Of a stretch of DNA of 64,000 nucleotides, positions 18,901 through 59,481 are shown one piece after another. Every line of letters starts with the position of its first letter. Positions within the stretch are counted from its first letter, which is position 1. The notes under the pieces are model-generated. The model made no database searches, was not told where the DNA came from, and saw nothing but the letters and a program-made list of their open reading frames with translations. The DNA is from Membranipora membranacea. Taxonomy: Eukaryota; Bryozoa; Gymnolaemata; Cheilostomatida; Membraniporidae. The stretch covers positions 9,297,387 to 9,361,386 of the forward strand of contig OU612069.1 of NCBI GenBank assembly GCA_914767715.1, written 5' to 3'. The position numbers were made by a program, and so were the translations under genes.

Positions 18901-21900
18901 GTTAATTGTGAATAATAATTATATTTATATAAATGTAATAGTTATGGATAAAAAGTATGAATTTTTTTAACATACTTTATGCAGGCATTTATTCTTTTGT
19001 GGATTCGATGATGTTGTTATATTAGCTGTTTATTTTTGTATATTCTCATACTTATGATTAAAATTCTCCACAGGTTATCTTTAGCGGAGGCCCACGCGCG
19101 ACTCTCACTGCGATCTGTAGTGACCCAAGAGGACGCCCTTTCAGCTATACTCCTCTATGAGGAATGCGTGACATCACAGACCCATCACTCTGTGCTGAAC
19201 GTCACACATGAGCCTCACTGGAACCCGTCTACTGTACAATACTATCTAACACAACAGGTAAGGGCGGAGGAGGGTTACACATGAGCCTCACTGGAACCCG
19301 TCTAATGTACAATACTATCTAACACAACAGGTAAGAGGGGGGGGGGGTCTCACATGAACCTCACTGGAACCCGTCTACTGTACAATACTATCTAACACAA
19401 CAGGTAAGAGGGGGGGGGGTCTCACATGAACCTCACTGGGACCCCTCTACTGTACAATACTATCTAACACAACAGGTAAGAGGGGGGGTGTCTCACATAA
19501 ACCTCACTGGAACCCGTCTACTGTACAATACTATCTAACACAACAGGTACGAGGTGGGGGTCTCACATGAACCTCACTGGAACCCGTCCACTGTACAATA
19601 CTATCTATCTCAACAGGTAAGAGGGGGGGGGTCTCACATAAGCCTCACTGGAACCCGTCTACTGTACAATACTATCTAACACAACAGGTAAGAGGGGGGA
19701 GGTCACACATGAGCCTCACTGGAACCCGTCTACTGGACAATACTATCTAACACAACCGGTAAGAGGGGGGAGGTGTCACATGAGCCTCACTGGAACCCGT
19801 CTACTGTACAATACTATCTAACACAACAGGGAAGAGGGGGGGGGGAACACACATGAGCCTCGCTGGAACCCGTCTACTGTACAATACTATCTAACACAAC
19901 AGGGAAGAGGGGGGGGGAACACACATGAGCCTCGCTGGAAACCGTCTACTGTACAATACTATCTAACACAACAGGTAAGAGGGGGGAGGTCTCACATGAG
20001 CCTCACTGGAACCCGTCTACTGTACAATACTATCTAACACAACAGGTAAGGGGGGGGAGGGAACACACATGAGCCTCGCTGGAACCCGTCTACTGTACAA
20101 TACTATCTAACACAACAGGGAAGAGGGGGGGGGGAACACACATGAGCCTCGCTGGAACCCGTCTACTGTACAAAACTATCTAACACAACAGGTAAGAGGG
20201 GGGAGGTCTCACATGAGCCTCACTGGAACCCGTCTACTGTACAATACTATCTAACACAACAGGGAAGAGGGGGGGGGGAACACACATGAGCCTCGCTGGA
20301 ACCCGTCTACTGTACAATACTATGTAACACAACAGGTAAGAGGGGGGGGGGGGTCACACATGAGCCTCGCTGGAACCCGTCTACTGTATAATACTATCTA
20401 ACACAGCAGGTAAGAGGGGGGGGTCACATATGAGCCTCACTGGAACCCGTCTACTGTACAATACTATCTAACACAACAGGGAAGAGGGGGGGGGGGGAAC
20501 ACACATGAGCCTCGCTGGAACCCGTCTACTGTACAATACTATCTAACACAACAGGGAAGAGGGGGGGGGGAACACACATGAGCCTCGCTGGAACCCGTCT
20601 ACTGTACTATACTATCTAACACAACAGGGAAGAGGGGGGGGAACACACATGAGCCTCGCTGGAACCCCTCTTCTGTACAATACTATCTAACACAACAGGT
20701 AAGGGGGGAGGTCTCACATGAGCCTCACTGTAACCCGTCTACTGTACAATACTATCTAACACAACAGGTAAGGGGGGGAGGTCACACATGAGCCTCACTG
20801 GAACCCGTCTACTGTACAATACTATCTAACACAACAGGTAAGAGGGGGGGAGGTCACACATGAGCCTCACTGGAACCCGTCTACTGTACAATACTATCTA
20901 ACACAACAGGTAAGAGGGGGAGGTCACACATGAGCCTCACTGTAACCCGTCTACTGTACAATACTATCTAACACAACAGGTAAGGGGGGAGGTCTCACAT
21001 GAGCCTCACTGTAACCCGTCTACTGTACAATACTATCTAACATAACAGGTAAGGGGGGGAGGTCACACATGAGCCTCACTGGAACCCGTCTACTGTACAA
21101 TACTATCTAACACAACAGGTAAGAGGGGGAGGTCACACATGAGCCTCACTGGAACCCGTCTACTGTACAATACTATCTAACACAACAGGTAAGAGGGGGG
21201 AGGTCACACATGAGCCTCACTGGAACCCCCGTCTATTGTACAATACTATCTAACACAACAGGTAAGGGGGGGAGGTCTCACATGAGCCTCACTGGAACCC
21301 GTCTACTGTACAATACTATCTAACACAGCAGGTAAGAGGGGGGGGGGGGGTCACACATGAGCCTCACTGGAACCCGTCTACTGTACAATACTATCTAACA
21401 CAACAGGTAAGAGGGGGGGAGGTCTCACATGAGCCTCACTGGAACCCGTCTACTGTACAATACTATCTAACACAACAGGTAAGAGGGGGGGAGGTCTCAC
21501 ATGAGCCTCACTGGAACCCGTCTACTGTACAATACTATCTAACACAACAGGTAAGAGGGCGGAGGTCTCACATGAGCCTCACTGTAACCCGTCTACTGTA
21601 CAATACTATCTAACACAACAGGTAAGGGGGGGAGGTCTCACATGAGCCTCACTGGAACCCGTCTACTGTACAATACTATCTAACACAACAGGTAAGAGGG
21701 GGGGAGGTCTCACATGAGCCTCACTGGAACCCGTCTACTGTACAATACTATCTAACACAACAGGTAAGAGGGGGGAGGTCTCACATGAGCCTCACTGTAA
21801 CCCGTCTACTGTACAATACTATCTAACACAACAGGTAAGGGGGGGAGGTCACACATGAGCCTCACTGGGACCCGTCTACTGTACAATACTATCTAAGACA

Positions 21901-24900
21901 ACAGGTAAGAGGGGGGAGGTCGCACATGAGCCTCACTGGAACCCGTCTACTGTACAATACTATCTAAGACAACAGGTAAGAGGGGGGAGGTCTCACATGA
22001 GCCTCTCTGTAACCCGTCTACTGTACAATACTATCTAACACAACAGGTAAGGGGGGGAGGTCTCACATGAGCCTCACTGGAACCCGTCTACTGTACAATA
22101 CTATCTAAGACAACAGGTAAGAGGGGGGAGGTCGCACATGAGCCTCACTGGAACCCGTCTACTGTACAATACTATCTAAGACAACAGGTAATAGGGGGGA
22201 GGTCTCACATGAGCCTCGCTGGAACTCGTCTACTGTACAATACTATCTAACACAACAGGTAAGAGGAGGGAGGTCTCACATGAGCCTCACTGGAACCCGT
22301 CTACTGTACAATACTATCTAACACAACAGGTAAGGGGGGGAGGTCTCACATGAGCCTCACTGGAACCCGTCTACTGTACAATACTATCTAACACAACAGG
22401 TAAGAGGGGGGGGAACACACATGAGCCTCACTGGAACCCGTCTACTGTACAATACTATCTAAGACAACAGGTAAGAGGGGGGAGGTCGCACATGAGCCTC
22501 ACTGGAACCCGTCTACTGTACAATACTATCTAAGACAACAGGTAATAGGGGGGAGGTCTCACATGAGCCTCGCTGGAACTCGTCTACTGTACAATACTAT
22601 CTAACACAACAGGTAAGAGGAGGGAGGTCTCACATGAGCCTCACTGGAACCCGTCTACTGTACAATACTATCTAACACAACAGGTAAGGGGGGGAGGTCT
22701 CACATGAGCCTCACTGGAACCCGTCTACTGTACAATACTATCTAAGACAACAGGTAAGAGGGGGGAGGTCGCACATGAGCCTCACTGTAACCCGTCTACT
22801 GTACAATACTATCTAACACAACAGGTAAGAGGGGGGAGGTCTCACATGAGCCTCACTGGAACCCGTCAACTGTACAATACTATCTAACACATCAGGTAAG
22901 AGGGGGGGGAGGTCTCACATTAGCCTCATTGGAACCCGTCTACTGTACAATACTATCTAACACAACAGGTAATGGGGGGGGAGGTCTCACATGAGCCTCA
23001 CTGGAACCCGTCTACTGTACAATACTATCTAACACAACAGGTAAGAGGGGGGAGGTCTCACATGAGCCTCACTGGAACCCGTCTACTGTACAATACTATC
23101 TAACACAACAGGTAAGGGGGGAGGTCTCACATGAGCCTCACTGTAACCTGTCTACTGTACAATACTATCTAACACAACAGGTAAGAGGGGGGAGGTCACA
23201 CATGAGCCTCACTGTAACCCGTCTACTGTACAATACTATCTAACACAACAGGTAAGAGGGGGAGGTCACACATGAGCCTTACTGGAACCCGTCTACTGTA
23301 CAATACTATCTAACACAACGGGTAAGAGGGGGGAGGTCACACATGAGCCTCACTGGAACCCGTCTACTGTACAATACTATCTAACACAACAGGTAAGGGG
23401 GGAAGGTCACACATGAGCCTTACTGGAACCCGTCTACTGTACAATACTATCTAACACAACAGGGAAGAGGGGGGGGGGAACACACATGAGCCTCACTGGA
23501 ACCCGTCTACTGTACAATACTATCTAACACAACAGGTAAGAGGGGGAGGTCACACATGAGCCTTACTGGAACCCGTCTACTGTACAATACTATCTAACAC
23601 AACAGGGAAGAGGGGGGGGGAACACACATGAGCCTCACTGGAACCCGTCTACTGTACAATACTATCTAACACAACAGGGAAGAGGGGGGGGGGGGAACAC
23701 ACATGAGCCTCACTGGAACCCGTCTACTGTACAATACTATCTAACACACCAGGTAAGAGGGGGAGGTCACACATGAACCTTACTGGAACCCGTCTACTGT
23801 ACAATACTATCTAACACAACGGGTAAGAGGGGGGAGGTCACACATGAGCCTTACTGGAACCCGTCTACTGTACAATACTATCTAACACAACGGGTAAGAG
23901 GGGGGAGGTCACACATGAGCCTCACTGGAACCCGTCTACTGTACAATACTATCTAACACACCAGGTAAGAGGGGGAGGTCACACATGAGCCTTACTGGAA
24001 CCCGTCTACTGTACAATACTATCTAACACAACGGGTAAGAGGGGGGAGGTCACACATGAGCCTCACTGGAACCCGTCTACTGTACAATACTATCTAACAC
24101 AACAGGTAAGAGGAGGGAGGTCACACATGAGCCTCACTGGAACCCGTCTACTGTACAATACTATCTAACACAACAGGTAAGAGGGGGGGAGGTCTCACAT
24201 GAGCCTCACTGGAACCCGTCTACTGTACAATACTATCTAACACAACAGGGAAGAGGGGGGGGGGAACACACATGAGCCTCACTGTAACCCGTCTACTGTA
24301 CAATACTATCTAACACAACAGGTAAGGGGAGGGAGGTCTCACATGAGCCTCACTGGAACCCGTCTACTGTACAATACTATCTAAGACAACAGGTAAGAGG
24401 GGGGGAGGTCTCACATGAGCCTCACTGTAACCCGTCTACTGTACAATACTATCTAACACAACAGGTAAGGGGAGGGAGGTCTCACATGAGCCTCACTGGA
24501 ACCCGTCTACTGTACAATACTATCTAAGACAACAGGTAAGAGGGGGGGAGGTCTCACATGAGCCTCACTGTAACCCGTCTACTGTACAATACTATCTAAC
24601 ACAACAGGTAAGGGGAGGGAGGTCTCACATGAGCCTCACTGTAACCCGTCTACTGTACAATACTATCTAACACAACAGGTAAGGGGAGGGAGGTCTCACA
24701 TGAGCCTCACTGGAACCCGTCTACTGTACAATACTATCTAACACAACAGGTGAGGGGGGAGGTCTCACATGAGCCTCACTGGAACCCGTCTACTGTACAA
24801 TACTATCTAACACAACAGGTGAGGGGGGAGGTCTCACATGAGCCTCACTGGAACCCATCTACTGTACAATACTATCTAACACAACAGGTAAGGGGAGGGA

Positions 24901-27078
24901 GGTCTCACATGAGCCTCACTGGAACCCGTCTACTGTACAATACTATCTAACACAACAGGTGAGGGGGGAGGTCTCACATGAGCCTCACTGGAACCCATCT
25001 ACTGTACAATACTATCTAACACAACAGGTAAGGGGGGAGGTCTCACATGAGCCTCACTGTAACCCGTCTACTGTACAATACTATCTAACACAACAGGTAA
25101 GGGGAGGTCTCACATGAGCCTCACTGGAACACGTCTACTGTACAATACTATCTAACACAACAGGTGAGGGGGGAGGTCTCACATGAGCCTCACTAGAACC
25201 CATCTACTGTACAATACTATCTAACACAACAGGTAAGGGGAGGTCTCACATGAGCCTCACTGGAACACGTCTACTGTACAATACTATCTAACACAACAGG
25301 TGAGGGGGGAGGTCTCACATGAGCCTCACTGGAACCCGTCTACTGTACAATACTATCTAAAACAACAGGTAAGAGGGGGGGAGGTCTCACATGAGCCTCA
25401 CTGTAACCCGTCTACTGTACAATACTATCTAACATAACAGGTAAGAGGGGGGGGGAGGTCACACATGAGCCTCACTGGAACCCGTCTACTGTACAATACT
25501 ATCTAACACAACAGGTAAGAGGGGGGGGGGGTCTCACATGAGCCTCACTGGAACCCATCTACTGTAAAATACTATCTAACACAACAGGTAAGAGGGGGGG
25601 AGGTCTCACATGAGCCTCACTGTAACCCATCTACTGTACAATACTATCTAACACAACAGGTAAGAGGGGGGGGAGGTCACACATGAGCCTCACTGGAACC
25701 CGTCTACTGTACAATACTATCTAACACAACAGGTAAGGGGGGGGGGAGGTCTCACATGAGCCTCACTGGAACCCGTCTACTGTACAATACTATCTAACAC
25801 AACAGGTAAGGGGGGGGGGGGGGTCATCTGCTTTTTGTGAGGAGAGAGGATTTGAAGTTCAAAAGTATTCTGATGGAGGTTTGGAGCTTGTTTAGAACTG
25901 AGGACAGAGTGGAGAGGTTTGTGACGGGCAGGCGTCAGCTCCCGTATGAGGATCAAATCTAAGGATTTTGAGCTAGGATAATGAGGGATTTGTAATTTTA
26001 TTATGTGAAGATTATGGATTTGAGTGGTATAGTCACCTGCCAGGCAATCAGTGCCTCCAGAGGAGTGGGTTCGAGTCCCATTGATGGGACGTTCCTTGAT
26101 TTGTCATCCCAGTCTCAGACACCCTTTGGTGTAGTTGCTTCCTGTTGAAATCTTCCAGTTGTTGTTAGGGCTGTACTATCACCTACCGTAATCGCGGCCC
26201 CCTTTATTGTGTATAGAAACAATGATTTTGAGAACAAAATAGCTGTGCTGTTGAGAATTAACCACAATATTAGAATGATATTATCACATAACGGTAATCG
26301 GAATCTTTCTCTCGAACAAATATGTGTCTGATTGATTGATTGTTTACATACAATTACAAAATCATGACAAGGATGATTAAAGGGCAACCTAGGTTTCAAA
26401 CAACTTCTCATTGATGGCCATTGATTAATAGCAGATTGCACCTTCTGCATTGGGAAAAAGACAAAATATATTTCGGATGATTATTCAGCCAGAATTCTTG
26501 TGAAACATTTCTTCCATCAGGTACTCAAACTCAGCTAAAAGAGAATACCACATAGCAGTTTCCTGTTCATGTTATTATTTACCCTGTGCTCTATAATTAT
26601 TACAGCAAAGTCTTGGAACCTCCCCTAAACTGAAGTGTTACCCAGCTTAGAGTCAGCAACTACTTTGAGTTTTGCATCGCGTAATGCACAAAGCTGATGC
26701 TGCCCAGCACATTATTTGCTACCCATTAATGCATTGCTGTGAAACCTATGTGTCTGATTGATTGATTGTTTACATACAATTACAAATTCATGACAAGGAT
26801 GATTAAGAGTTGTATGCATGTGACAGCTCTCATTGTAACTCAGTTATCCATGGAATTGTTGTATTAAAATGGCTTAGATGGCATATAAAACATGACAATT
26901 AGGGGCAAGTCTGCGATCTCTTGTTTTGAGGTAAATGTGATGACATTAAAAGGCCAAATTAATATATGATCATCATTATCTCATTGTTACATTGTAGAAT
27001 GATGAAGGAATGGAGACTCTGAAAACTCTGGTGGATAACTTCTGTAAGATCCATTGCTCGAGCTCCATTGAAGAATGA
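4154..27078 (+). CDS. MCMDC2-like protein (minichromosome maintenance domain-containing 2)
   Basis: Sixteen exons join in phase to about 664 codons: 4154-4260 (start uncertain), 5846-5949, 6939-7043, 8330-8502, 8984-9121, 10777-10880, 11440-11539, 11848-11901, 12689-12765, 13254-13416, 14888-14977, 15282-15462, 17105-17300, 17870-18006, 19074-19257, 26998-27078 (TGA). Landmarks remembered from vertebrate MCMDC2 appear in order: a zinc-ribbon-like block (CYFC...CTVC in exon 4) with YGFKYVRIHIPGA, a GTFVKLKLSLLLSL block, and LSLAEAHARLSLR near the C terminus. The vertebrate protein is about 680 residues and acts in meiotic recombination; Drosophila has related mini-MCM proteins. About the first 20-40 residues and the start codon were not found. 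The last intron, 7.7 kb long, carries the splice-donor tandem array. No ATPase activity is claimed. Confidence 0.88.
5697..5811. repeat. Short MITE
   Basis: CCCATAATGCAATATC at the left and AGATGCATTATGGG at the right form imperfect inverted ends about 115 bp apart, just upstream of the second MCMDC2-like exon. No coding content and no clear target duplication. Confidence 0.45.
7089..7352 (+). repeat. Imperfect tandem duplication, about 208-bp period
   Basis: AATTTGGCCTTGGCTTAGTA at 7089 recurs as AATTTGGCCTTAGCTTAGTA at 7297. Both are followed by CTTTTGTAGC and CATCCAAAAGTAGT. A more diverged partial copy around 7208-7250 (TTTTGGCGCTAGC, GAAAAGTAGTAG) lies between them. All lie in an intron of the MCMDC2-like gene. 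Confidence 0.7.
8663..8724 (+). other. microRNA-precursor-like hairpin in intron
   Basis: GCTGCAATGCGAG (8663-8675) pairs perfectly with CTCGCATTGCAGC (8712-8724). After a small internal loop, CATGAG pairs with CTCATG, leaving a loop of about 11 nt. This gives a 62-nt stem-loop in the sense strand of an MCMDC2-like intron. Similarity to a known microRNA seed was not established, and a short palindromic repeat is the alternative. Confidence 0.5.
9565..10470. mobile_element. Non-autonomous hAT element, 906 bp
   Basis: The left end CAGCTGTGGGCAACC matches the reverse complement of the right end (CATGGGTGGGCAACC) at 12 of 15 positions. A perfect 8-bp duplication, ATATACAT, flanks both sides (9557-9564 and 10471-10478). 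The CAG start, the GGGCAACC core and the 8-bp duplication are typical of hAT transposons. No transposase domain is visible inside; the minus-strand frame at 9683-9970 is not recognisable. It sits in an intron of the MCMDC2-like gene. Confidence 0.85.
10951..11040. repeat. Imperfect inverted repeat
   Basis: TAATTAGAAAGACC and GGTCTTTCAATTAGA are inverted copies, enclosing two ATTACTCAAGC/ATTATCACTC-like blocks. The small palindrome CAAGGAGTTAACTCCTTG follows at about 11056, and a related palindrome recurs at 17021-17052. Probably MITE remnants. Confidence 0.5.
12938..12972. repeat. (TA)n microsatellite
   Basis: A run of alternating T and A in an intron of the MCMDC2-like gene. Similar short TA runs lie at 18418-18460 and 43470-43498. 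Confidence 0.9.
13004..13229 (-). repeat. Dispersed repeat, copy 2
   Basis: Reverse-orientation copy of the repeat at 2672-2905, located between two MCMDC2-like exons and ending about 25 bp before the acceptor of the exon at 13254. Confidence 0.75.
13424..14060. repeat. Foldback element with about 230-bp arms
   Basis: The left arm (about 13424-13665) and right arm (about 13830-14060) are inverted copies. Shared blocks include TAGACCCAAA/TTTGGGTCTA at the outer ends, GATTTTCCAAT/ATTGGAAAATC and CAACAGTCCGCACATGCGCA and its complement. The element begins within about 10 bases of the donor after the exon ending at 13416. No coding content. Confidence 0.8.
16650..16968. repeat. Small foldback (MITE-like)
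   Basis: GATATAAAAATACAGTATAG near 16653 is an inverted copy of CTATACTGTATTTCTATATC near 16937-16956. The adjoining segments resemble each other more weakly. Intronic, with no coding content. Confidence 0.5.
19205..25823 (+). repeat. Tandem array (about 90 copies) of an exon end plus its 5' splice site
   Basis: The unit is about 69-78 bp. It contains the last roughly 50 bases of the penultimate MCMDC2-like exon (peptide HEPHWNPSTVQYYLTQQ), then GTAAG, then a run of 5-13 G and a short GTCTCACAT linker. The first copy is the real exon end (donor at 19258). Copies differ mainly in G-run length, in GTAAG/GGAAG/GTGAG at the donor, and at a few recurring positions such as ACTGGAACC/ACTGTAACC and AACACAACAG/AAGACAACAG. 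The second copy brings an in-frame TGA at about 19282. A few consecutive 69-bp units stay open in frame (24750-24950), but most do not. This is local amplification, not a protein-repeat domain. Confidence 0.95.
26020..26095 (+). repeat. tRNA-like sequence (Leu/Ser-type layout)
   Basis: A-box-like GAGTGGTATAGTCA, a possible long variable arm (CAGTGCCTCCAGAGGAGTG) and a good B box (GGGTTCGAGTCCCA). The 5' half does not fold into normal D and anticodon stems. Probably a tRNA-derived repeat in the last MCMDC2-like intron. Confidence 0.4.
26325..26815 (+). repeat. Direct repeat pair
   Basis: TGTGTCTGATTGATTGATTG followed by TTTACATACAATTACAAA and TCATGACAAGGATGATTAA occurs at about 26322-26382 and again at about 26749-26808. 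The two copies are about 427 bp apart and nearly identical. Intronic. Confidence 0.7.
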
Positions 27079-49700: not shown

Positions 49701-49960
49701 TCCAACATTGCCTTAATAATAAACCTAGACAGGACACTATACAGCTGAAGTGAGGCACTTAATTGTGGGGCAACGTAACGTCATTGGAAGGTGTAGAAGC
49801 AATGATATCATTGATTTAATGAAGGTTTTTTGTTCATAACTCAATCAATTTTGATCGGACTTTGAACTTTTGGGTTATCCTTCTTTGCGGGACGCGCATA
49901 CGAAGCACCAACCTAGAAGGAGAAACCAGTAGGTAAATGTGCAATCTTGAAGAGATCCTA

Positions 49961-50560
49961 CACTGTAAAAACTAAAGGTACAAACACGGTACAGAAAAAG
50001 GTACATTGAGGGTACCAAAATTTGTGACAACATAGGTACCCTTTTCCGTACCCTTTTGAGGGTACCAGATTGTACCATAATATGTGAAAAGGTACACCTC
50101 AATGTGCTACTTGCGTACCTTCTTGAAGGTACGCTCATGTACCATGTATTTCAAAATGGTACATTATTTTGTACCTTATAATGGTACGAGCATGTACCAT
50201 GATTTCTGAGAAGGTACACTAAAATGCGCCCTTGGCGTACCTTGTTTAGTGGTACGCTCATGTACCATGAGTTATGAAATGGTACAGAATTAGGTACCGT
50301 TTCTAGTACCCTGTTATGGTACGGTCATGTACCATGCTAAGAAAAAGGGTACCTATGTTGTCACAAATTTTTGTACCCTTTCTAGTACCCTTTTAGTACC
50401 ATTTTAAGTACCCTTTCATTGGTACGGTTATGTACCATGCTAGGAAAAAGGGTACCTATGTTGTCACAATTTGTTGTACCCTTTTTAGTTCCCTTTTTAG
50501 TACCCTTTCAATGGTATGGTCATGAACCATATTTTATTCCAGGAACTGTACCCACCGGTA
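49961..50560. promoter_or_regulatory. Left subterminal repeat region of the CACTA-like element
   Basis: More than twenty GGTAC or GTACC motifs in both orientations within 600 bases. They are often arranged as GGTACG-N-CATGTACCAT palindromes, and a longer block GGTACCTATGTTGTCACAA occurs in repeated and inverted form. In plant CACTA elements such arrays bind the transposon's DNA-binding protein. That role here is inferred. Confidence 0.75.
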
Positions 50561-50977
50561 CGTGTTATTATGCAACATGCTGGAATTAGGAATATTATTA
50601 TATTCTGAATTACATAAATGGACAGAGCTAAGATAGGAGACAATTATTTATTTACACTATAATAATTAGTGCTGAAATGAGCAAAGCAATACAAGATAAT
50701 CAATCAATAGACCAAAAAAAGGCATGCCGACTTCCATAGTTCACTGCTGAATAGAAAGGTTAGTGTGTAAGTTTTGTTATTGGGCCTATTCATTGCATTG
50801 AATTGTCAAGGGCATCGGCATGATCTGATATTAGAGGAAAATTGTACTAAATTCTGACCGTAGACAGCTTAATCATAATAAAAGGCATAAAAAATTACAA
50901 GAAATGCAAAAAAAAGAGTTGTTTTGTGATAAAATTTTTACTCCAGGCTATTCCATAACAGTAGACAAAGACTCAAG

Positions 50978-53900
50978 TTAATAAAACGATGCAGAAAGCG
51001 ACAACTTATCGATAAGAGTTGTGACTGCTGCCACTTTGATTTTTGACTTACATTTTAAGCCTGCACAATATTCTAGCAGGGTCATACAGCTTTTTGGCTG
51101 GTAATGTATTGCCAGAATATGGTGCAGGCTGAAGAATGCAGCAAGAGCTTCTGCCGGTGTCGACCTCTGAATAATCTCAGTTCTGTTGAGCGATATGGTG
51201 ATGCTGTTCTTGTGTATTACTAGCACCAGCTTCTTGGACACATCTTGCAGCTGCAAAAGAATCACACAGAAAATGTTAATATGTAACAAAAACTCACGTC
51301 CATTTATAGTCTCGATACCCTGTGATACCGTGTGAGAAACCTTGATGTTGTTTGTTTTTTTTTGTGTCAGTATCAGTACGGGTCTACGGACTGGATCATG
51401 ATGGGGCACAGGAGCATTTGAGGTCGGATGCTCTTTTTGACACCACCGTGACACGCCGGGAATCAAACACAAGACCCATGCCTTACCCATTGCGCCACAA
51501 AAAACTACAAATAAGTGTTGTTGATACATAATAAGCCTTTGCCAAAGAGGCATAACAGAGACTGTGTGAGTGAAAGGTTATAACATGTACCTTTTTATCT
51601 AACCAGGTAATATAAGTATTCAAACACACTTGCCCCTTCTAAAAATCAGGGTTATTTGGGAAGCGATGCAACGAACCATTTCCATCGAAACTGTGACAGA
51701 AAAATAATCAATTCAAAGTTCCTTGTTTGTCAGAAACACTAGATATGATATACACAAACTTACATCTTCTTTCTCATAGTAGAGGTGATTCTGAATTTCT
51801 CCTAAACTTAAGGGCAACAGCATCAGGCCCAATGTACTGAGAGACATATCATCATCTATAAACAGAAATATGACTGACATAAAACTATGAAACAAAGTGC
51901 CCTACACATGTTTAGTATTACCAGCTCATTTACCACTCTCAGGGTGTTCAATTTTTACCATGGGTGCTTTTTGGTACATTCACATTTAAGTGAGTAATTA
52001 TTGCGATTGGATGCATCTTAATCCTTCACCCAATAATCCTATATCCTATCCCAAAATACAATTCAGATCAGGTTGACTATTTAGTATAATTGATATCTAA
52101 CTGCTCATCCTGGGATCTCTGATTGATGTTGCATTGTGGGAATGGTGTTGGTCTGCTCTATTAGATCATTTTTATCTGAAAAAAAATAGCTACCTTGTCC
52201 TTGATGTTTCTTTAAATAGGGCTGAGCTTTCTTGTATTCTTTTAGCATAGTTTGGAAAGCCTTGCCCAACGTAACCAGCAACTTCTCAACTCCTGTCTCA
52301 AACACTTGGGAGGCTGGACACCTTCCCATTCCCAATCCACACTCAACAGCCGCCAGTTTGAGAGCTTCAGTGTACATCTGCAATAAAAAAAGGCAAATAA
52401 ATACATTATAGCTTATTTGTCATTGAATTGTAAGCGTAATTGACCCTTACTGTCAAGGGGGTTATTGGAATTATACTCATTGCAATAAGGGTACAACAAG
52501 TCAAGACGCCATAGTAATGAGTATCTCAAAACATTGGATGGAACAGTCGCAATCACTTGACAGTGGTCCTCAGTCACATTTAAAAGGGACAGACTTACGT
52601 GCTCAGTTGTGAACAAGTCAGGCCATTTCCTCATCTCTGACACTGGATCGAGAACTGCAGCAATAATGCTCTGCATCCGCATCTCCCGTGTTCTGGCCAG
52701 CATTTCATGCACTTCCTCGCTCTCTGGTGCAGTCTGGACATATTCGATCTCCGTATCGGCGGCTGCAGCACTAGGAACCTAAAAATATAGCCACAGTTAT
52801 TGATGAACTTGAATGTTGTAATACGTTTGTTGCGTAGCAGCATTATTGCATTGCCACAAGATTCTGATTCCGTTTACCCAATTCAGACAGTGTGAGGCAC
52901 TAGCTTTTGTATATTGACAAGTGATAACAGATATAATTTGCTGTACCTTGCTTCTTTTCACCGGTGATGGCGGCGGAATAGCTTCTGCAGCAGCACTGGA
53001 TGTAATCGTCGACCTTTTCTTGGCAGTAGTATATTTTTGCCTCATCTCTAATACCTCAGGGCTCACCAGGTTCTTCCGATAGTCTTTGAACTTTCGTTTG
53101 AGCTTCTTCCTCCAAAAATCGCTGTGTGGTGAGAAAATCATTATTGTTCAGAGCGAACCAGTTTCTCCATGAACAGGTTTTGATTTTTGAGTACAGACAT
53201 GTTAGATGACATGAAGTGAAGCTGATACTGGTAACTCTAAGCTGCTTACTCAAGAATTTAAAACTTTCAGATGACTGGTAATGATTCGTTTAATTGAAGC
53301 AATACCTCAGAAACATGCATTTTCTGACATAATATAATGATGGCATACTTACATTCCGGTACAGGATGCGCTGTCATCAGCGAGAAATGGGTATTTATGT
53401 ATTAATGATTCACATACGTGCTCGTACTGCCTCGCTGTTGGATACCTACAGAGGAGAATGTAAGTTCTTTGGTTAATCTATTGTGTTGGTTGAGCTCTAA
53501 TCACATGTAAATCAGACAACTGAAAATAACGGGGTCTTCACTCGTTTTTGAATTTATAGTATATACAACTAAATAGGACAAATATTTCATTGTAAAGATG
53601 GCGTATACCTAAATCCTTCAGGACCAATAAAAATAAAATATGTATAGCAATTTTGTTTGAATATCCTTACAATTATTAAAATGGTAAGCTAAATGGGCTA
53701 TCACCAGATCATACTGAAACTGGCATTAGTACCACATCCACAAGAATTACATTGTTGGCGGAAAGGTTAATGCTGAAAAATCCTGAACATTACAAAATAA
53801 CAACTCACGCTGAATCTGTAGGGAAAAACTTAAGCATGTCCTCGTGAAGTATACGAATGATTGTGCTCATCAGCCTCTCGTGTAGTTTCGTGTTTTCTTT

Positions 53901-54812
53901 CAGCGAGCACAGCTGGGTCCTCAGTCGATCCGGAAATTCAGGAATGGTGTACATAGAGGGCCAAGTTATAACTGGTGTAGGTACTACGATACCTGAATCA
54001 AGTCTAAAAAATAAAAAAAACAACTGAATAGCAAATTGTTAATTCAAAAAGTAATATTTCTTGGAAGCTAGGGCTGAGGCTTGTTATTGATTTCAAACTG
54101 TTCTGTGATAATAAAAACATCTTTGTTGCGACTCAAAGATGGTTAGTATAATGTGAATATATTTAGCAGCTCATCAGGCCAGATCGCAAGCTGACACTGG
54201 AGCACTGGGCTACAAATTGGAATGCACCAGTTGAGACTTTCAAAAAAGGTCTGGATTTACTCAAATGACAAGCAGATTGAGCAAAAGTAAATTTCATCTG
54301 ATAACAGATTTTGAAGGGAAAATGCATACCTGTCTGCTCCAGAAGTCATTACTGTTGGAACCACAAACACCTTCTCTTCCTTATCCAAAATATCGAATAC
54401 TGCTGAGTCTTCTATCTCTGTCCCATCGCTGATCTCAAGCCTAACCATTGTCAAGCTGAATGCAGTTTTCACTGTAACCAAGAGAAAAAATGTTAAGTAC
54501 TCCTGATATAGGTTGTAACTGATTCACACTTTTAAATGCCATATATTATGATTGTGCAACGACTTTGTCACCAAGGTACAAGAATGAGCAAAAAGTCTGA
54601 ACTGTAAATGCTAAGACTGTCCAATGAGTTCATTGGACTGTCATATGAAAAGAAGAAATTGTTTTCAGTGTTGTGAAGTGCTATGTATACATGTGTAACA
54701 ACCTCTAAATATTATAAAATATACCTTTATCTTTGAATTCTTGGAAATCCTTAGCAACAATAAACTTCTTAACGGTTTCATCCCTACTCCACACTTTTCT
54801 TGTTAAACTCAT
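50978..54812 (-). CDS. Companion protein of the CACTA-like element (SAMD3-like family)
   Basis: Nine minus-strand exons join in phase to 474 codons including the stop: 54812-54725, 54471-54330, 54003-53809, 53445-53353, 53121-52947, 52778-52599, 52377-52194, 51855-51764, 51250-50978. The first 75 residues resemble a PB1-like fold (KFIVAKDFQEFKDKV, LEISDGTEIEDSAVFDIL). Next comes the block YPTARQYEHVCESLIHKYPF with FWRKKLKRKFKDYRK, familiar from proteins annotated sterile alpha motif domain-containing 3-like in fish and invertebrates. A basic stretch (KKRS, PVKRSK) suggests nuclear import. The C terminus has a hydrophobic LAAFFSLHHILAIHY block. No SAM domain is evident. By position it may be the DNA-binding or regulatory partner of the transposase, as TnpA is in En/Spm. 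The ATG lies 2 bases after an acceptor. Confidence 0.8.
51361..51490 (-). repeat. tRNA-derived SINE-like insertion inside the transposon
   Basis: On the minus strand, TGGCGCAATGGGTAAGGC (A-box-like) is followed by TTTGATTCCCGGCG (B-box-like) and about 80 bases of tail ending near an A-rich run. It lies in the last intron of the companion gene, so it arrived after, or travelled with, the CACTA-like element. Confidence 0.55.
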
Positions 54813-54877
54813 ATCTACAATAACAAAATTTTATAAAATGAATTAGCTACATCCGCAGGCAGTGGTACTTGGTGTTA

Positions 54878-57373
54878 TTAATACTTTGCTGGTAGTGCAC
54901 ACAATAAAACATGGATGTTTCCATGGATAGTGTAGCAAAGGGCGGGAGTTCTCACATACAGAGATGACAGATCCTGAAATACAAGGCTTGGGCGTGCAGA
55001 ACATATATATGTCCATGTACAATCATCGAACTTAGTTGGTATAATTTCAGTTCCACCTAGATACCACTTGCTGCGGATGTTTACAATGTACTCAACTTTG
55101 TAAAAAAGTGGAATGTCCTCATGAACCATTCCTGAGATTAATACACATCCTTTGGAATACTTGCATCCATTGGCCATTACCCAAGATGCATCAAAAACTG
55201 AATCCTCTTCAAAATATCCCACATTTGCTGCATCTTTGATACGATTACAGATATCCTCAGGGAAGTCTGATAGTGACTTTCTATGACCTGGACCACAAAC
55301 ACCATTGCCAGTAGGAACAAAGCTATCTGATGACATTAGCACAGCATGCAACGTCTGACATCTTGTTGACAAGGTTTTAGTCAGGTTTTTGAAATTCTTT
55401 AGCTTTCGTGTGAGGTCTTTGAAGTATTGATGTTTGCCTTCAAATCGCATGGTCCAATACCTCCTTGGGGGGCCAAACATGTCAATAAGACGAGGGTAGT
55501 GGATCAGAAAATGACATTTGGGTGTCAGTCTGCCAGGCGCCAAATCATTGAAAAGTTTATTATGGGTAGCTATCAGGTTAGCTAAGTAACCTAAGTTGTC
55601 CCTTGGAACACAATCTGCAAGTAAAATCTCACCAATTTCCCTACACTTAACCAACAGGCGCCATGCCTTGTTATCACTGCCTACCACAATCTCAGTACCT
55701 AGGATGAGTGGAAGATGGACAAGCAAGCACCATTTTTGGGATCCTGTTCCTTTGAACTTGCCATCTTTCAGGTTCTGGCCTGTAATGTCCATATTATATG
55801 GATTCAAATGAGAGTTACTCAGCTTGTACCTAAAACCTTTAATCAGCCGATTAATTCTAGTCAAGGTTATTATTCCAGCATCTTTCAGTTGACTGAGCAC
55901 AATAGAGATAACAAGGGGGACGACACCCTCAAGGAAGTCATGGAACACATCTGGTAACAGCATACGAGTCAGATCAATACTCTGGGCATGTAACCTAAAT
56001 AGGATCGAATCAGTCTTAACACCACATGGATCAGAATCAGCAGCGGCTTCCAACGACCGCAAATTATCCACAATAGTTTCTGGAGTCCTTAGGTGACACT
56101 GATTTTCCAATAATTTATTTGAAAGCTCTCCGTATCGACAATGACAGAAACGACATATATGACCAGACGAAAAATTTGTTTGGTAACCCCCTAAAGCATG
56201 AGCTGATAAATTGTCTCCACAGAAAGCCAACAAACGGACAGACAACTCCCTACCAGTCTCAAGGATGATGGGATTGGCCACTAAGTCATTTAGCTCATCA
56301 ATGAGCGGTTTGAAAATCTTTCCATAGCCATAGATTTTTCTCAAAGCATCAGGAATAAGCCCATACAAAAATATATGACGAGACTGTGATCTCATGTTCG
56401 GTGGGAGGCATGCCAGTGTGAAATAAACAGCGCAGACTTTATGTTTGATTCTAAAAGCACCTATTGGATTGCATACCTCAAGCTCATCTGTGTAAAATAT
56501 AAGATCTAGCGTATTGGAAACGGCGGTGAATGCTGTTCCATCAACAAAGTCTCTCAATATTGATTCATGAGGCTGAACTGACATATAGCTTAGGATCTCT
56601 GATAGCACGTTTTCGTTGGCTGTCAGTGCACGTAACGTTTTACGGAGAGGAATAATATGCATATCTAAAGACTTTCTGTTTTCGGTGGCAATGTCTTCAT
56701 CAAGCGGGGAGATTCGATGGGCAACTGGAGCTACATAGTATGGGCTCTTCTCAATATACTGAGTAACATGCCAATCACTGCTTACATTGGAGAATAAACT
56801 CTCAAAATATTGATCCCCTAATATTTGACTCTGTTCAGGTGACAATGTTACATTGCCGACTAGCTCTGTGAAAAATCCTTGGAACACTGATGCTATTTCA
56901 GAAAATATCCCTCTCGCTGTGGATTTTGGTAACATGTATTGTTCCTGCGCTTTGATAAATGTATTGGTGATTGCATCAGATGTTATTTGATGTAATTCTG
57001 ATAGATTTCTACATTGATTTTTATCAGGAACTTCAGAATTTTCAGTCACAACATTTTGAGTGGTTTCACATTCAAAATCAAACTCAAACTCAGGCTGCGT
57101 TAACATATATTGCTCACGGTGTTCTTGTTGAACAATTTCCCCCTCATGCAAGACCGAATCATTGGATGAAATGCCACTTTGCTGCCTGGTAGCATCCCTG
57201 TGTTTTCTGTAACCATGAACTCTGAAGCTAGCGCTGCTTGTAAAAGTTTGACAGCAACCGTCAATTCCACAAGTAATTATAAATGGCTCTCCAGAATGAT
57301 TGGTTGCCAGATGTGTGCAAAGGCGCCTAAAACTCAAGCAAGATATGCCACACAGACTACATGTAAACCTCAT
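54878..57373 (-). CDS. CACTA/EnSpm-like transposase with N-terminal C2H2 fingers
   Basis: A single uninterrupted minus-strand frame of 831 aa from the ATG at 57373; an in-frame GTG at 57400 extends it but is less likely. Two C2H2-like fingers open the protein: CSLCGISCLSFRRLCTH, and CGIDGCCQTF with HGYRKH. The core resembles transposases of the CACTA/TNP2 kind. It has FYTDELEVCNPIGAFR, VYFTLACLPP, then PLIDELNDLV, AFCGDNLSAHALGGY with CRFCHC, LPDVFHDFLEGVVP, and MRFEGKHQYFKDLTRK near residue 670. Candidate catalytic acids are the D of TDELE, the D of CGDN and the E of RFEGKH; these are inferred, not proven. No internal stops or frameshifts. It lies within the first intron of the companion transcript if that is spliced from 57419 to 54814. 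Confidence 0.85.
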   Translation of the reverse strand: MRFTCSLCGISCLSFRRLCTHLATNHSGEPFIITCGIDGCCQTFTSSASFRVHGYRKHRDATRQQSGISSNDSVLHEGEIVQQEHREQYMLTQPEFEFDFECETTQNVVTENSEVPDKNQCRNLSELHQITSDAITNTFIKAQEQYMLPKSTARGIFSEIASVFQGFFTELVGNVTLSPEQSQILGDQYFESLFSNVSSDWHVTQYIEKSPYYVAPVAHRISPLDEDIATENRKSLDMHIIPLRKTLRALTANENVLSEILSYMSVQPHESILRDFVDGTAFTAVSNTLDLIFYTDELEVCNPIGAFRIKHKVCAVYFTLACLPPNMRSQSRHIFLYGLIPDALRKIYGYGKIFKPLIDELNDLVANPIILETGRELSVRLLAFCGDNLSAHALGGYQTNFSSGHICRFCHCRYGELSNKLLENQCHLRTPETIVDNLRSLEAAADSDPCGVKTDSILFRLHAQSIDLTRMLLPDVFHDFLEGVVPLVISIVLSQLKDAGIITLTRINRLIKGFRYKLSNSHLNPYNMDITGQNLKDGKFKGTGSQKWCLLVHLPLILGTEIVVGSDNKAWRLLVKCREIGEILLADCVPRDNLGYLANLIATHNKLFNDLAPGRLTPKCHFLIHYPRLIDMFGPPRRYWTMRFEGKHQYFKDLTRKLKNFKNLTKTLSTRCQTLHAVLMSSDSFVPTGNGVCGPGHRKSLSDFPEDICNRIKDAANVGYFEEDSVFDASWVMANGCKYSKGCVLISGMVHEDIPLFYKVEYIVNIRSKWYLGGTEIIPTKFDDCTWTYICSARPSLVFQDLSSLYVRTPALCYTIHGNIHVLLCALPAKY

Positions 57374-57418
57374 TGAGAAGAATGATACTGGTACGGTCAC
57401 ATTATAAGAATAACTTAC

Positions 57419-57540
57419 CGATCTCTTTGCTGGATATTCACTGTAAATCTGTAATTGTGTGAGTTTCAGTGGTGTTCTCTGTGTGCTCTCTCTCTCTCTG
57501 AATGCTTATAGCCAAGTAATGCTTAGTAAGAATTATATCA
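57419..57540 (-). other. Candidate shared untranslated first exon of the transposon
   Basis: On the minus strand a strong donor (GATCG|GTAAGTTA, GT at 57418-57417) lies 45 bases before the transposase ATG. Splicing from here to the acceptor TTGTTATTGTAG (ending at 54815) would remove the entire transposase frame and place the companion ATG two bases into the next exon. Unspliced RNA would expose the transposase frame. A CT run (57483-57497) lies within this exon. Confidence 0.5.
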
Positions 57541-57543
57541 GTT

Positions 57544-57552
57544 CTATATAAC
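57544..57552 (-). promoter_or_regulatory. Possible TATA box of the transposon
   Basis: The minus strand reads GGGTTATATAGAAC, a TATA-like element about 130 bases upstream of the putative first-exon donor and 170 bases upstream of the transposase ATG. Spacing is compatible with transcription of both element genes. Confidence 0.35.
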
Positions 57553-58312
57553 CCCTCTCATTCATTCAAAGATTGGGATGGTCATTTGTATAAACAAGAC
57601 TCCACTAATGATCAAACACATAGTTATGAAAACCCGCAATATATTTGTTTTGACAGCAAAGGATTATCTTGTTTTGGTTTTATTCAACCAACATGTTGAC
57701 TGATTCATGGACGAACAAAAAGAAATTCACTGGAAGAATCTCACGCTAACCTACAATATAATTGCTCTGACCCGGAATGTTTACTATATTTTGGTTGTAC
57801 TCAACCAACATGTTGACTAATTCATGGCTGAACAAATAGAAATTCACGGGAAGTAGCTCTCACTATCTGATAAATTTGTGAGATGCTAAATAATATGAAT
57901 AGAGCCATGAAGAGATCTGGTAAGCCTTTTCATAAATACTATGATAAAGGATGTGCAGTAATTCACGTTTCCATGCAGCTGTTGCCAACCAGTTTGATTA
58001 TAATGAGGTTTAAATGTTAATACAGGTACATCTTTTAATTCCTGTACAAAAATATCCTCTATACTGCCATTTTACACATTGCAGAATATACACTGAATAA
58101 GATAGTGTTTTTAAATTCTAATTGCCCAGCGACAATATTCAGTACCATTACACTTCGAAAAGTACTTAGACAACAACACTAATATTTTTGCATAAAATAA
58201 GCACATACATATTATACATTATGTTTAATTTAGACCAGTTAATACCAGCCAGCCAGCCAGGCATTCGCTCCATAAGTTCTAAATTTATTGCCTACAAGTT
58301 ACAAGGTCCTAA

Positions 58313-58623
58313 CCCATTTTTGTCCCATTTATGTACCATGAGACGTGTACCACAGTTGTACCTTTCCTGGACCTTTATGGCCATTTCTGTACCTTTTTCT
58401 AACTTGTACCCTTTATAACACTTTCATGGACCATATTCGTACCTCTTCAGAGGGTTACTCGGCACAATTCCAGAAGATGGTACATGATTGTACCATTTCA
58501 ACTGACATGTACCCCAATTAAGATGAATTGTACCCTCTAGGTACCATCTAACGCCACTTTAATGTACCCAGCAGAAGTCTGTACCTTTTTTGTACCATTA
58601 TAGTACCTTTAGTTTTTACAGTG
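58313..58623. promoter_or_regulatory. Right subterminal repeat region of the CACTA-like element
   Basis: About fifteen GTACC/GGTAC motifs in roughly 310 bases, ending in the terminal repeat. The motif matches that of the left end, in mixed orientation. Likely transposase or companion-protein binding sites by analogy with plant CACTA elements. Confidence 0.7.
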
Positions 58624-59481
58624 TATGAAAATTTATTTCGAGATCAAATGATTGGTATTTGATTTACTTGCGATTTTCAATTCCTTTAGCTGGTTAAATT
58701 GCACAACTACTTCAACCTGTAGCACACAGCCAAAAAACACAGTCAAATGGATAATTCAGGAACCTCCAATACAACAAAATGCTTTACATTCAGCTTTCAG
58801 ACCAACGTCAATGTAGTTATTGTAGTATACTTCAGCAGACATTGACAGACCGATAACGAGGCTCAGTATCAGGTTTCCTTTTATTGGACGCCATGGTTAG
58901 CCTCTGGCGGCAGGGCTTCAGTGTATCACCAGGGACAGATCAAATCTGCAAATATATATCAGGCGTTACAAGCAATACAAACTGGAACAGGTTGTATATA
59001 GTTCCACAAGCTGCAATTTTTATTAGACCTACACAAATGTTATTGTAATGCTTACTAAGTTAAAGTTAAAGTTGAATGTTTTGTGATGTGACAATACGCC
59101 ATGAGCTAATGGCCAGACGGCGATCTGTTCCCAAGGAGCTCATGGCAAAGAGTAAATCATTATAGTACATTTAGATAATGAGCAATTGAACAATGAACAA
59201 ATTAACAATGCATTTTTATGGTAAGTTTTCACATTAGATAGCTTGAGAATATGCTTATGTGATTAGTTATATTTATCAGTGATAAACTGCTACTTTGCTG
59301 AACGTTGCAGTTATCATATTGAGCCTTAATCCTGACAGTCAGTTAAAAAGCAGGGAGGGGGCATAGGCCTGTAGTTGCCTTAACTGTTGATAGAAGTGCT
59401 ACTGACACGTACAGTTTATGTACTGAGTGGTGTGCAGAAGTAGACCTATACTCATAGGCATATTAAGTTACAAGCATGCAT

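Follow-up and report, generated by a model that had tools for sequence, protein, structure and literature searches.

Evidence for a structurally complete two-gene CMC transposon with a predicted CIDE-N protein in the bryozoan Membranipora membranacea

A 64,000-nucleotide stretch of contig OU612069.1 from the bryozoan Membranipora membranacea (hereafter the window, whose positions are used unless stated otherwise) contains an 8,663-bp element with two genes, both on the minus strand (49961-58623; C5:9347347-9356009 in assembly coordinates). It raises the question of whether this is a complete DNA transposon that can move itself, and what its second gene would contribute. A first-pass annotation, made from the letters alone, had described an intact CACTA/EnSpm-like transposon with perfect 20-bp inverted ends, a TA duplication, and subterminal repeat arrays. 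We find that the element is almost certainly a CMC transposon, and we think it likely that it is a structurally complete, probably autonomous two-gene member of the CMC/CMCT group, EnSpm-like with a 2-bp duplication. The ends are indeed exact: CACTGTAAAAACTAAAGGTA occupies 49961-49980 on the plus strand and 58604-58623 on the minus strand, and no other match with up to three mismatches lies in the window (mean of 0.02 in 100 shuffles). The element termini read CACTG and are of the CA..TG type. The arrays were equally evident from repeat counts, with a left, GGTAC/GTACC-rich array at 49981-50560, which includes tandem units 103 and 122 bp long, and a right array at 58320-58603. Of the 120 occurrences of GGTAC or GTACC in the whole window, 41 fall within 49901-50600 and 16 within 58301-58700 (overlaps included, 100-bp bins). 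A TA dinucleotide lies on both sides, at 49959-49960 (from flank reading and comparison of bounded copies) and at 58624-58625 (from flank reading and paralogous sites).

Screening the assembly (339 Mb, 18 contigs) with the 20-bp end returned 23 exact and eight one-mismatch occurrences, 31 in all with the window's two exact ones counted, and the reversed pattern, used as a control, returned no exact and one one-mismatch occurrence. Inverted ends by chance are ruled out by the shuffles and by these copies across the assembly. Twenty regions around terminal 20-mers were retrieved for comparison, eight of which have both ends (at up to four mismatches) and a length of 3.0-3.4 kb. They comprise the two ends and remnants of the ORF1 start and the gene 2 end, which identifies them as internal-deletion derivatives of the window element or a close relative. 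In seven of the nine bounded copies, the window's included, the flanking dinucleotides match, reading TA in five copies and TG in two. The remaining pair (L033 and L034, at C1:33.81 and 34.28 Mb) have the flanks TC/TA and share the 3-kb insertion and the same 12-bp flanks; at 99.8% identity and a distance of about 464 kb, they are a young segmental duplication of one insertion, so that the nine bounded copies represent eight events, seven of them with matching flanks. Because the matching flanks read either TA or TG, the duplication is 2 bp long and not strictly TA, and the annotated TA duplication holds for this locus but not as a rule for the family. Six of the eight derivatives are mutually 95.9-98.1% identical, and the duplicate pair is about 90% identical to those six.

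The first-pass annotation had proposed looking for further copies and for empty sites with a single TA, and the latter were found as well. A search of the assembly with the right flank gave six matches on one contig, the window and five paralogues, at 9.10-9.42 Mb. The duplicated segments form a cluster (C5:9103008-9422079) of six, about 47-92 kb apart, of which the window holds one. All five paralogous sites are empty, and the left flank joins the right flank there through a single dinucleotide, which reads CA rather than TA. In the four segments measured, identity to the window is 92-97% for the left flanks (over 0.8-1 kb) and 83-89% for the longest piece of the right flanks. Because the element is missing from all five, it inserted into one of the six duplicated segments after their separation, and segmental duplication instead of transposition is ruled out for the window copy.

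ORF1 is, as annotated, an uninterrupted frame of 831 aa; it runs from the ATG at 57373 to the stop at 54878 (minus strand). It comprises two N-terminal C2H2 fingers, a RAG1-like catalytic core, and a C-terminal BAH-like fold. The core residues are D296, D387, and E645, assigned as catalytic on the basis of conservation and a structural model, together with C407-C410, which form C(2)C, and H621-H625, which form H(3)H. ORF1 thereby has the CMC/CMCT motif, given in passages of PMC12730594 as D-D-E with C(2)C and H(3-4)H between the second D and the E. An alignment of ORF1 with its relatives (12 members) yielded Pfam matches at E <= 0.1 to Transposase_21 (tnp2) in five members, DUF4218 in five, and Plavaka in four, with best E values of 2.3e-5, 2.2e-4, and 3.7e-4, respectively. 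The predicted fold is that of a RAG1/Transib-type recombinase, a likeness whose core motifs are common to the whole clade and do not decide Transib/RAG membership. The C-terminal tail has a predicted BAH fold and the BAH family is absent among the ORF1 Pfam matches (at E <= 1 and at E <= 0.1), which is why we call the tail BAH-like only; DNMT1, ZMET2, and MET1 carry BAH domains. An uncharacterised Hydra vulgaris protein (LOC136080144) is 25% identical to ORF1 over 90% of the query and has the same catalytic and zinc residues. A scan of IMG/VR with the transposase alignment gave nine stretches that fit the pattern, none of which was confirmed. That ORF1 belongs to a host gene family or is a domesticated transposase flanked by inverted ends through chance has a negligible probability: nothing was found in its favour, and the empty sites and copies rule it out. 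The relatives' Pfam matches, the predicted fold, and the genome copies likewise rule out ORF1 as a host gene family, and the transposase-like character proposed at first pass is thus upheld.

To which group does the element belong? Transib and RAG make 5-bp target duplications, and the element has their predicted RAG1-type core fold but not their duplication length. The CA..TG termini and the short duplication agree with the CMC/CMCT group, whose target duplications are 2-5 bp long according to passages of Kojima (PMC12730594), in which 3 bp is taken as consistent with EnSpm. The same passages give 8 bp for KDZ (Zisupton), which the 2-bp duplication rules out. The 3-bp duplication of a strict EnSpm/CACTA element is not found here, given the 2-bp TA or TG in seven of nine bounded copies and the single dinucleotide at the empty sites; the subterminal arrays and the predicted many-exon second gene do conform to that group. 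The CACTA/EnSpm-like name thus fits at the level of the CMCT clade and departs from EnSpm in the duplication length.

Gene 2 (predicted) comprises the nine exons of the first-pass annotation, whose structural description was reproduced in every point, and lies on the minus strand. All eight introns are GT..AG, the phases agree, and the 474 codons, stop included, run without an internal stop and encode 473 aa. In the gene model, exon 1 from the ATG (54725-54812) and exon 2 (54330-54471) carry the first and second parts of a CIDE-N domain recognised with Pfam; they are followed by exon 3 (53809-54003), exon 4 (53353-53445), exon 5 with the basic stretch WRKKLKRKFKDYRK (52947-53121), exon 6 (52599-52778), exon 7 (52194-52377), exon 8 (51764-51855), and exon 9 with the stop (50978-51250), which is present in the copies at C3:33140223 and C5:17800307 too. 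The spliced product matches Pfam CIDE-N (PF02017) at residues 6-64 with 32.0 bits (cut-off 23.5, E 1.3e-7), a match that spans profile positions 5-66 of 76. The exon 2 frame alone scores 13.1 bits (E 0.1). The domain rises above the cut-off solely when exons 1 and 2 are joined, and splice and domain are therefore both supported. Among solved chains, the nearest by sequence are Drosophila Drep-3, at E 0.0023 for the first 77 residues and 0.036 for the full-length protein, and Drep-2, at E 0.21. The roughly 400 residues after CIDE-N have no Pfam match at E <= 10 and no DFF protein among solved structures, the sole DFF-type match covering the CIDE-N part, and no gene 2 homologue was found at E <= 0.001 among 7998 protein database candidates scored. 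Exons 3-5 may resemble fish proteins called SAMD3-like. The N-terminal CIDE-N is shared with DFF40, DFF45, CIDE, and Drep proteins; unlike in these, the remainder of the gene 2 product is without a Pfam match and the gene lies inside a transposon. No transposon-encoded CIDE-N was apparent in searches of open-licence literature that paired CIDE-N with transposon or transposase; Repbase was not covered, and an earlier notice is possible.

A second copy (C5:17790983-17800579) carries the ORF1 3' end followed by all nine gene 2 exons in order, eight of them at 93-98% DNA identity and exon 4 with 20 gap columns, which shows that CIDE-N belongs to the element. We are highly confident that the domain is part of the element's own gene. 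The second copy has decayed, with two in-frame stops, loss of the exon-2 acceptor, and several extra kb between exons 4 and 5. Leaving out these two stop codons and eight gapped codons, dN is 0.036 and dS 0.087 over 463 codons of gene 2, and 0.034 and 0.097 over the 75 CIDE-N codons. The whole gene has 39 replacement changes at 1085 sites, compared with 24 silent changes at 304 sites (P 0.003, Fisher). When the sole partner is a dead copy, a gene kept by selection in the element lineage would be expected to give a ratio near 0.4.

How could the two genes be expressed together? Maize En/Spm offers a comparison. Passages of PMC2613891 describe a transposase frame that derives from the intron-1 region of tnpA, alternative splicing that gives two proteins, and the recognition of subterminal repeats by TNPA, both proteins being required. 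The maize element as described there resembles the one reported here in length (8.3 kb versus 8.66 kb), subterminal repeats, deletion derivatives, a large transposase frame accompanied by a second gene of many exons (11 for tnpA, against nine coding exons and probably a leader exon here), and a transposase apparently within intron 1 of the second gene. CACTA ends, implied by the name of the maize group, are a further likeness. The bryozoan element differs in its 2-bp rather than 3-bp duplication, its animal host, the N-terminal CIDE-N of its second protein, and the two N-terminal C2H2 fingers of its transposase.

The features that bear on this layout all lie on the minus strand. A TATA-like TTATATAG at 57544-57551, found by eye only, is a candidate promoter upstream of the leader. 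A candidate splice donor, TCG/GTAAGT (57413-57421, the GT starting at 57418), is located 45 bases before the ORF1 ATG and ranks fourth among the 537 GT in the element, as scored with a simple matrix of splice-site frequencies. A candidate acceptor AG (54815-54816, the same bases in the second copy) ends two bases before the gene 2 ATG. ORF1 and gene 2 are separated by 65 bases only, and this gap contains neither AATAAA nor ATTAAA; the first AATAAA downstream of the gene 2 stop is at 50647-50652 (motif search). Because a donor precedes ORF1 and an acceptor precedes gene 2, an En/Spm-like layout is suggested, in which the transposase frame would lie inside intron 1 of gene 2. We favour this layout slightly, and by analogy with maize it appears to be the most economical reading of the predicted gene arrangement.

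If so, a single promoter near the right end would give rise to one primary transcript, which would encode the transposase when the first intron (57418 to 54815) is kept and the CIDE-N protein when it is removed. The transposase would cut at the CACTG ends and insert at TA, TG, or CA through a D-D-E reaction of the RAG1/Transib type; the ends, the duplication, and the conserved residues are observed, and the chemistry is inferred from RAG1/Transib. CIDE-N domains polymerise and self-assemble. On the model of TNPA in maize, the gene 2 protein could bind the subterminal repeats of GGTACC type and, through its CIDE-N domains, link adjacent molecules, thereby gathering the two ends or regulating the promoter. 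Such a TNPA-like role is conceivable, with a probability somewhat under one half. The BAH-like tail of the transposase may bind chromatin, and RAG2 does the chromatin reading in the immune system. The complete scheme is speculative: the CIDE-N protein would act as TNPA, arise from the pre-mRNA of the transposase by removal of the transposase-containing intron, coat the GGTACC arrays at the two ends, and zip them together by polymerisation, and the RAG1-like transposase would read chromatin through its BAH-like domain, so that a single protein would parallel the way RAG1 and RAG2 divide their tasks.

Several observations weigh against the complete, probably autonomous element that we propose. 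ORF1 alone stays below the Pfam cut-offs (Plavaka, 16.8 bits versus 26.3), so that its link to tnp2 runs via its relatives. The target reads CA in the empty paralogues versus TA on both sides of the element. Both the nine-exon structure and the intron-1 layout are predicted; two unused GT sites outscore every donor of the model, and the gene 2 donors rank from 3 to 53 of 537. Gene 2 showed no DNA-binding fold, and its dN/dS comes from a comparison with a dead copy. The leader GTAAGT is kept in nine of the 11 copies that cover it, most of which are related derivatives at about 70% identity, so these few families amount to one or two observations. The stretch between the genes contains a TATAAA at 54835, which could belong to a separate promoter. 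The window copy has the only full-length ORF1 among the matches listed in a genome search with ORF1 (51 matches; 52 of 99 candidates scored).

Some of these points would suit two independent genes with separate promoters and no En/Spm-like intron 1, a substantial possibility that we place below even. The TATAAA between the genes is joined there by an acceptor before gene 2 that is just 56% pyrimidine (the exon 6 acceptor is alike) and by donor conservation that is weak evidence. It is opposed by the high-ranking GTAAGT donor shortly before the ORF1 ATG with an acceptor immediately before that of gene 2, by the short gap without a polyadenylation-type hexamer (AATAAA/ATTAAA), and by the position of the TATAAA itself, 23 bases before the gene 2 ATG and close for a promoter.

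The main rival to a TNPA-like role concerns gene 2, which could be a captured host CIDE-N gene that has no part in transposition and acts on the host, for example by damping the DFF/CAD nuclease at breaks. We consider this improbable. According to passages of PMC4229683, the DNase Dff40/CAD and its inhibitor Dff45/ICAD interact through their CIDE-N domains, and the genome does hold another CIDE-N match. The genome-wide family search, carried out exon by exon and missing even the split copy in the window, gave one match outside the element among the matches listed (C10:17230724-17230846, 31.4 bits), which by eye looks like a host gene of DFF type and is unlike gene 2 (no gene 2 match below E 3). 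The residues behind CIDE-N, without a Pfam family or a DFF structure match, speak against a host capture, and the position of gene 2 directly behind the transposase, with no such hexamer between, fits an integrated gene of the element.

The lone full-length ORF1 raises the further alternative of a recently dead relic whose frames are open but which is immobile. The near relatives examined are deleted or carry stops, as this alternative would have it. The nearest, a derivative on C3, has lost the left end and the middle; its three blocks are 96.3, 96.4, and 98.7% identical in DNA, and it shows 10 differences in 852 coding bases (six silent, four not) and has an altered start codon. A partial copy at C5 17.79 Mb has protein identities of 91 and 98% in two pieces and 63% in a third, and a decayed one at C10 8.64 Mb is 70-80% identical. 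Against a relic stand the perfect 20-bp ends, the two open genes, the five empty paralogous sites, and the close similarity among six of the eight 3-kb derivatives, which some source must have moved fairly recently. We regard a dead relic as rather unlikely. The similarity of relatives and derivatives points to movement of the family within the last few percent of divergence, and the element may be active today. The recent movement claimed at first pass is thus partly supported, by an insertion that followed the separation of the duplicated segments and a nearest relative at about 96%.

The transposon type, the RAG1-like core, the deletion derivatives, and the two-gene layout are of known kinds; the CIDE-N domain, the BAH-like tail, and the En/Spm-like transcription layout are additions to the first-pass annotation. 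In animals, complete CMC elements whose two genes are open offer an opportunity to test movement in a branch related to the RAG recombinase. A CIDE-N module in a transposon gene would make an unusual helper protein, as the domain is best known from cell-death proteins, and, if true and general, its pairing with a transposase would be a testable way to bring distant transposon ends together. The BAH-like tail raises the question of whether chromatin reading is a repeated habit of RAG1-type transposases. Cargo genes of CMCT elements include the TET/JBP dioxygenases of fungi (passages of PMC12730594), where the element described here has CIDE-N. Passages of the Hydra viridissima study (PMC7642931) report 10 and 7 CIDE-N in Hydra genomes, where five other cnidarians have 1-3, and rank CMC with the largest DNA-transposon components of Hydra. 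These figures would fit a transposon-borne CIDE-N, and the pairing, if real and general, might explain the higher Hydra counts; the passages draw no link.

Beyond its own family, ORF1 has other matches in the genome at 24-37% identity, which shows that other transposases of its kind reside there. Eight matches of near-equal score have 26% identity, a 246-aa frame, and one TAA each (C3:27502135, C9:13043435, C5:17242232, C8:4634268, C5:29048724, C9:12342474, C7:6762082, and C11:11393602); they may form a further family of such transposases that was amplified recently, or a deletion derivative of one. A distant transposase locus on C9 (L062) matched ORF1 only and not gene 2 in tblastn at E <= 1, no profile search having been made; by eye it runs into other repeats, so that it is uninformative on gene 2. 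Loci at C5:26.75-27.84 Mb and at C7:21.40 and 23.95 Mb match only or mainly gene 2 exons 5 and 6, at about 65-81%, and probably represent another deletion-derivative family. Two decayed copies, L048 (4118-6642) and L049 (4340-6594), contain an insert of about 2.2-2.5 kb within gene 2, bounded by inverted ends (95% over 21 bp for L048 and 83% over 24 bp for L049) in which GGGGGGACTCACC occurs; it is probably a different, nested element. Elsewhere in the window, positions 19201-25820 are occupied by a 6.6-kb tandem array with a 71-bp unit in about 93 copies (93% matches).

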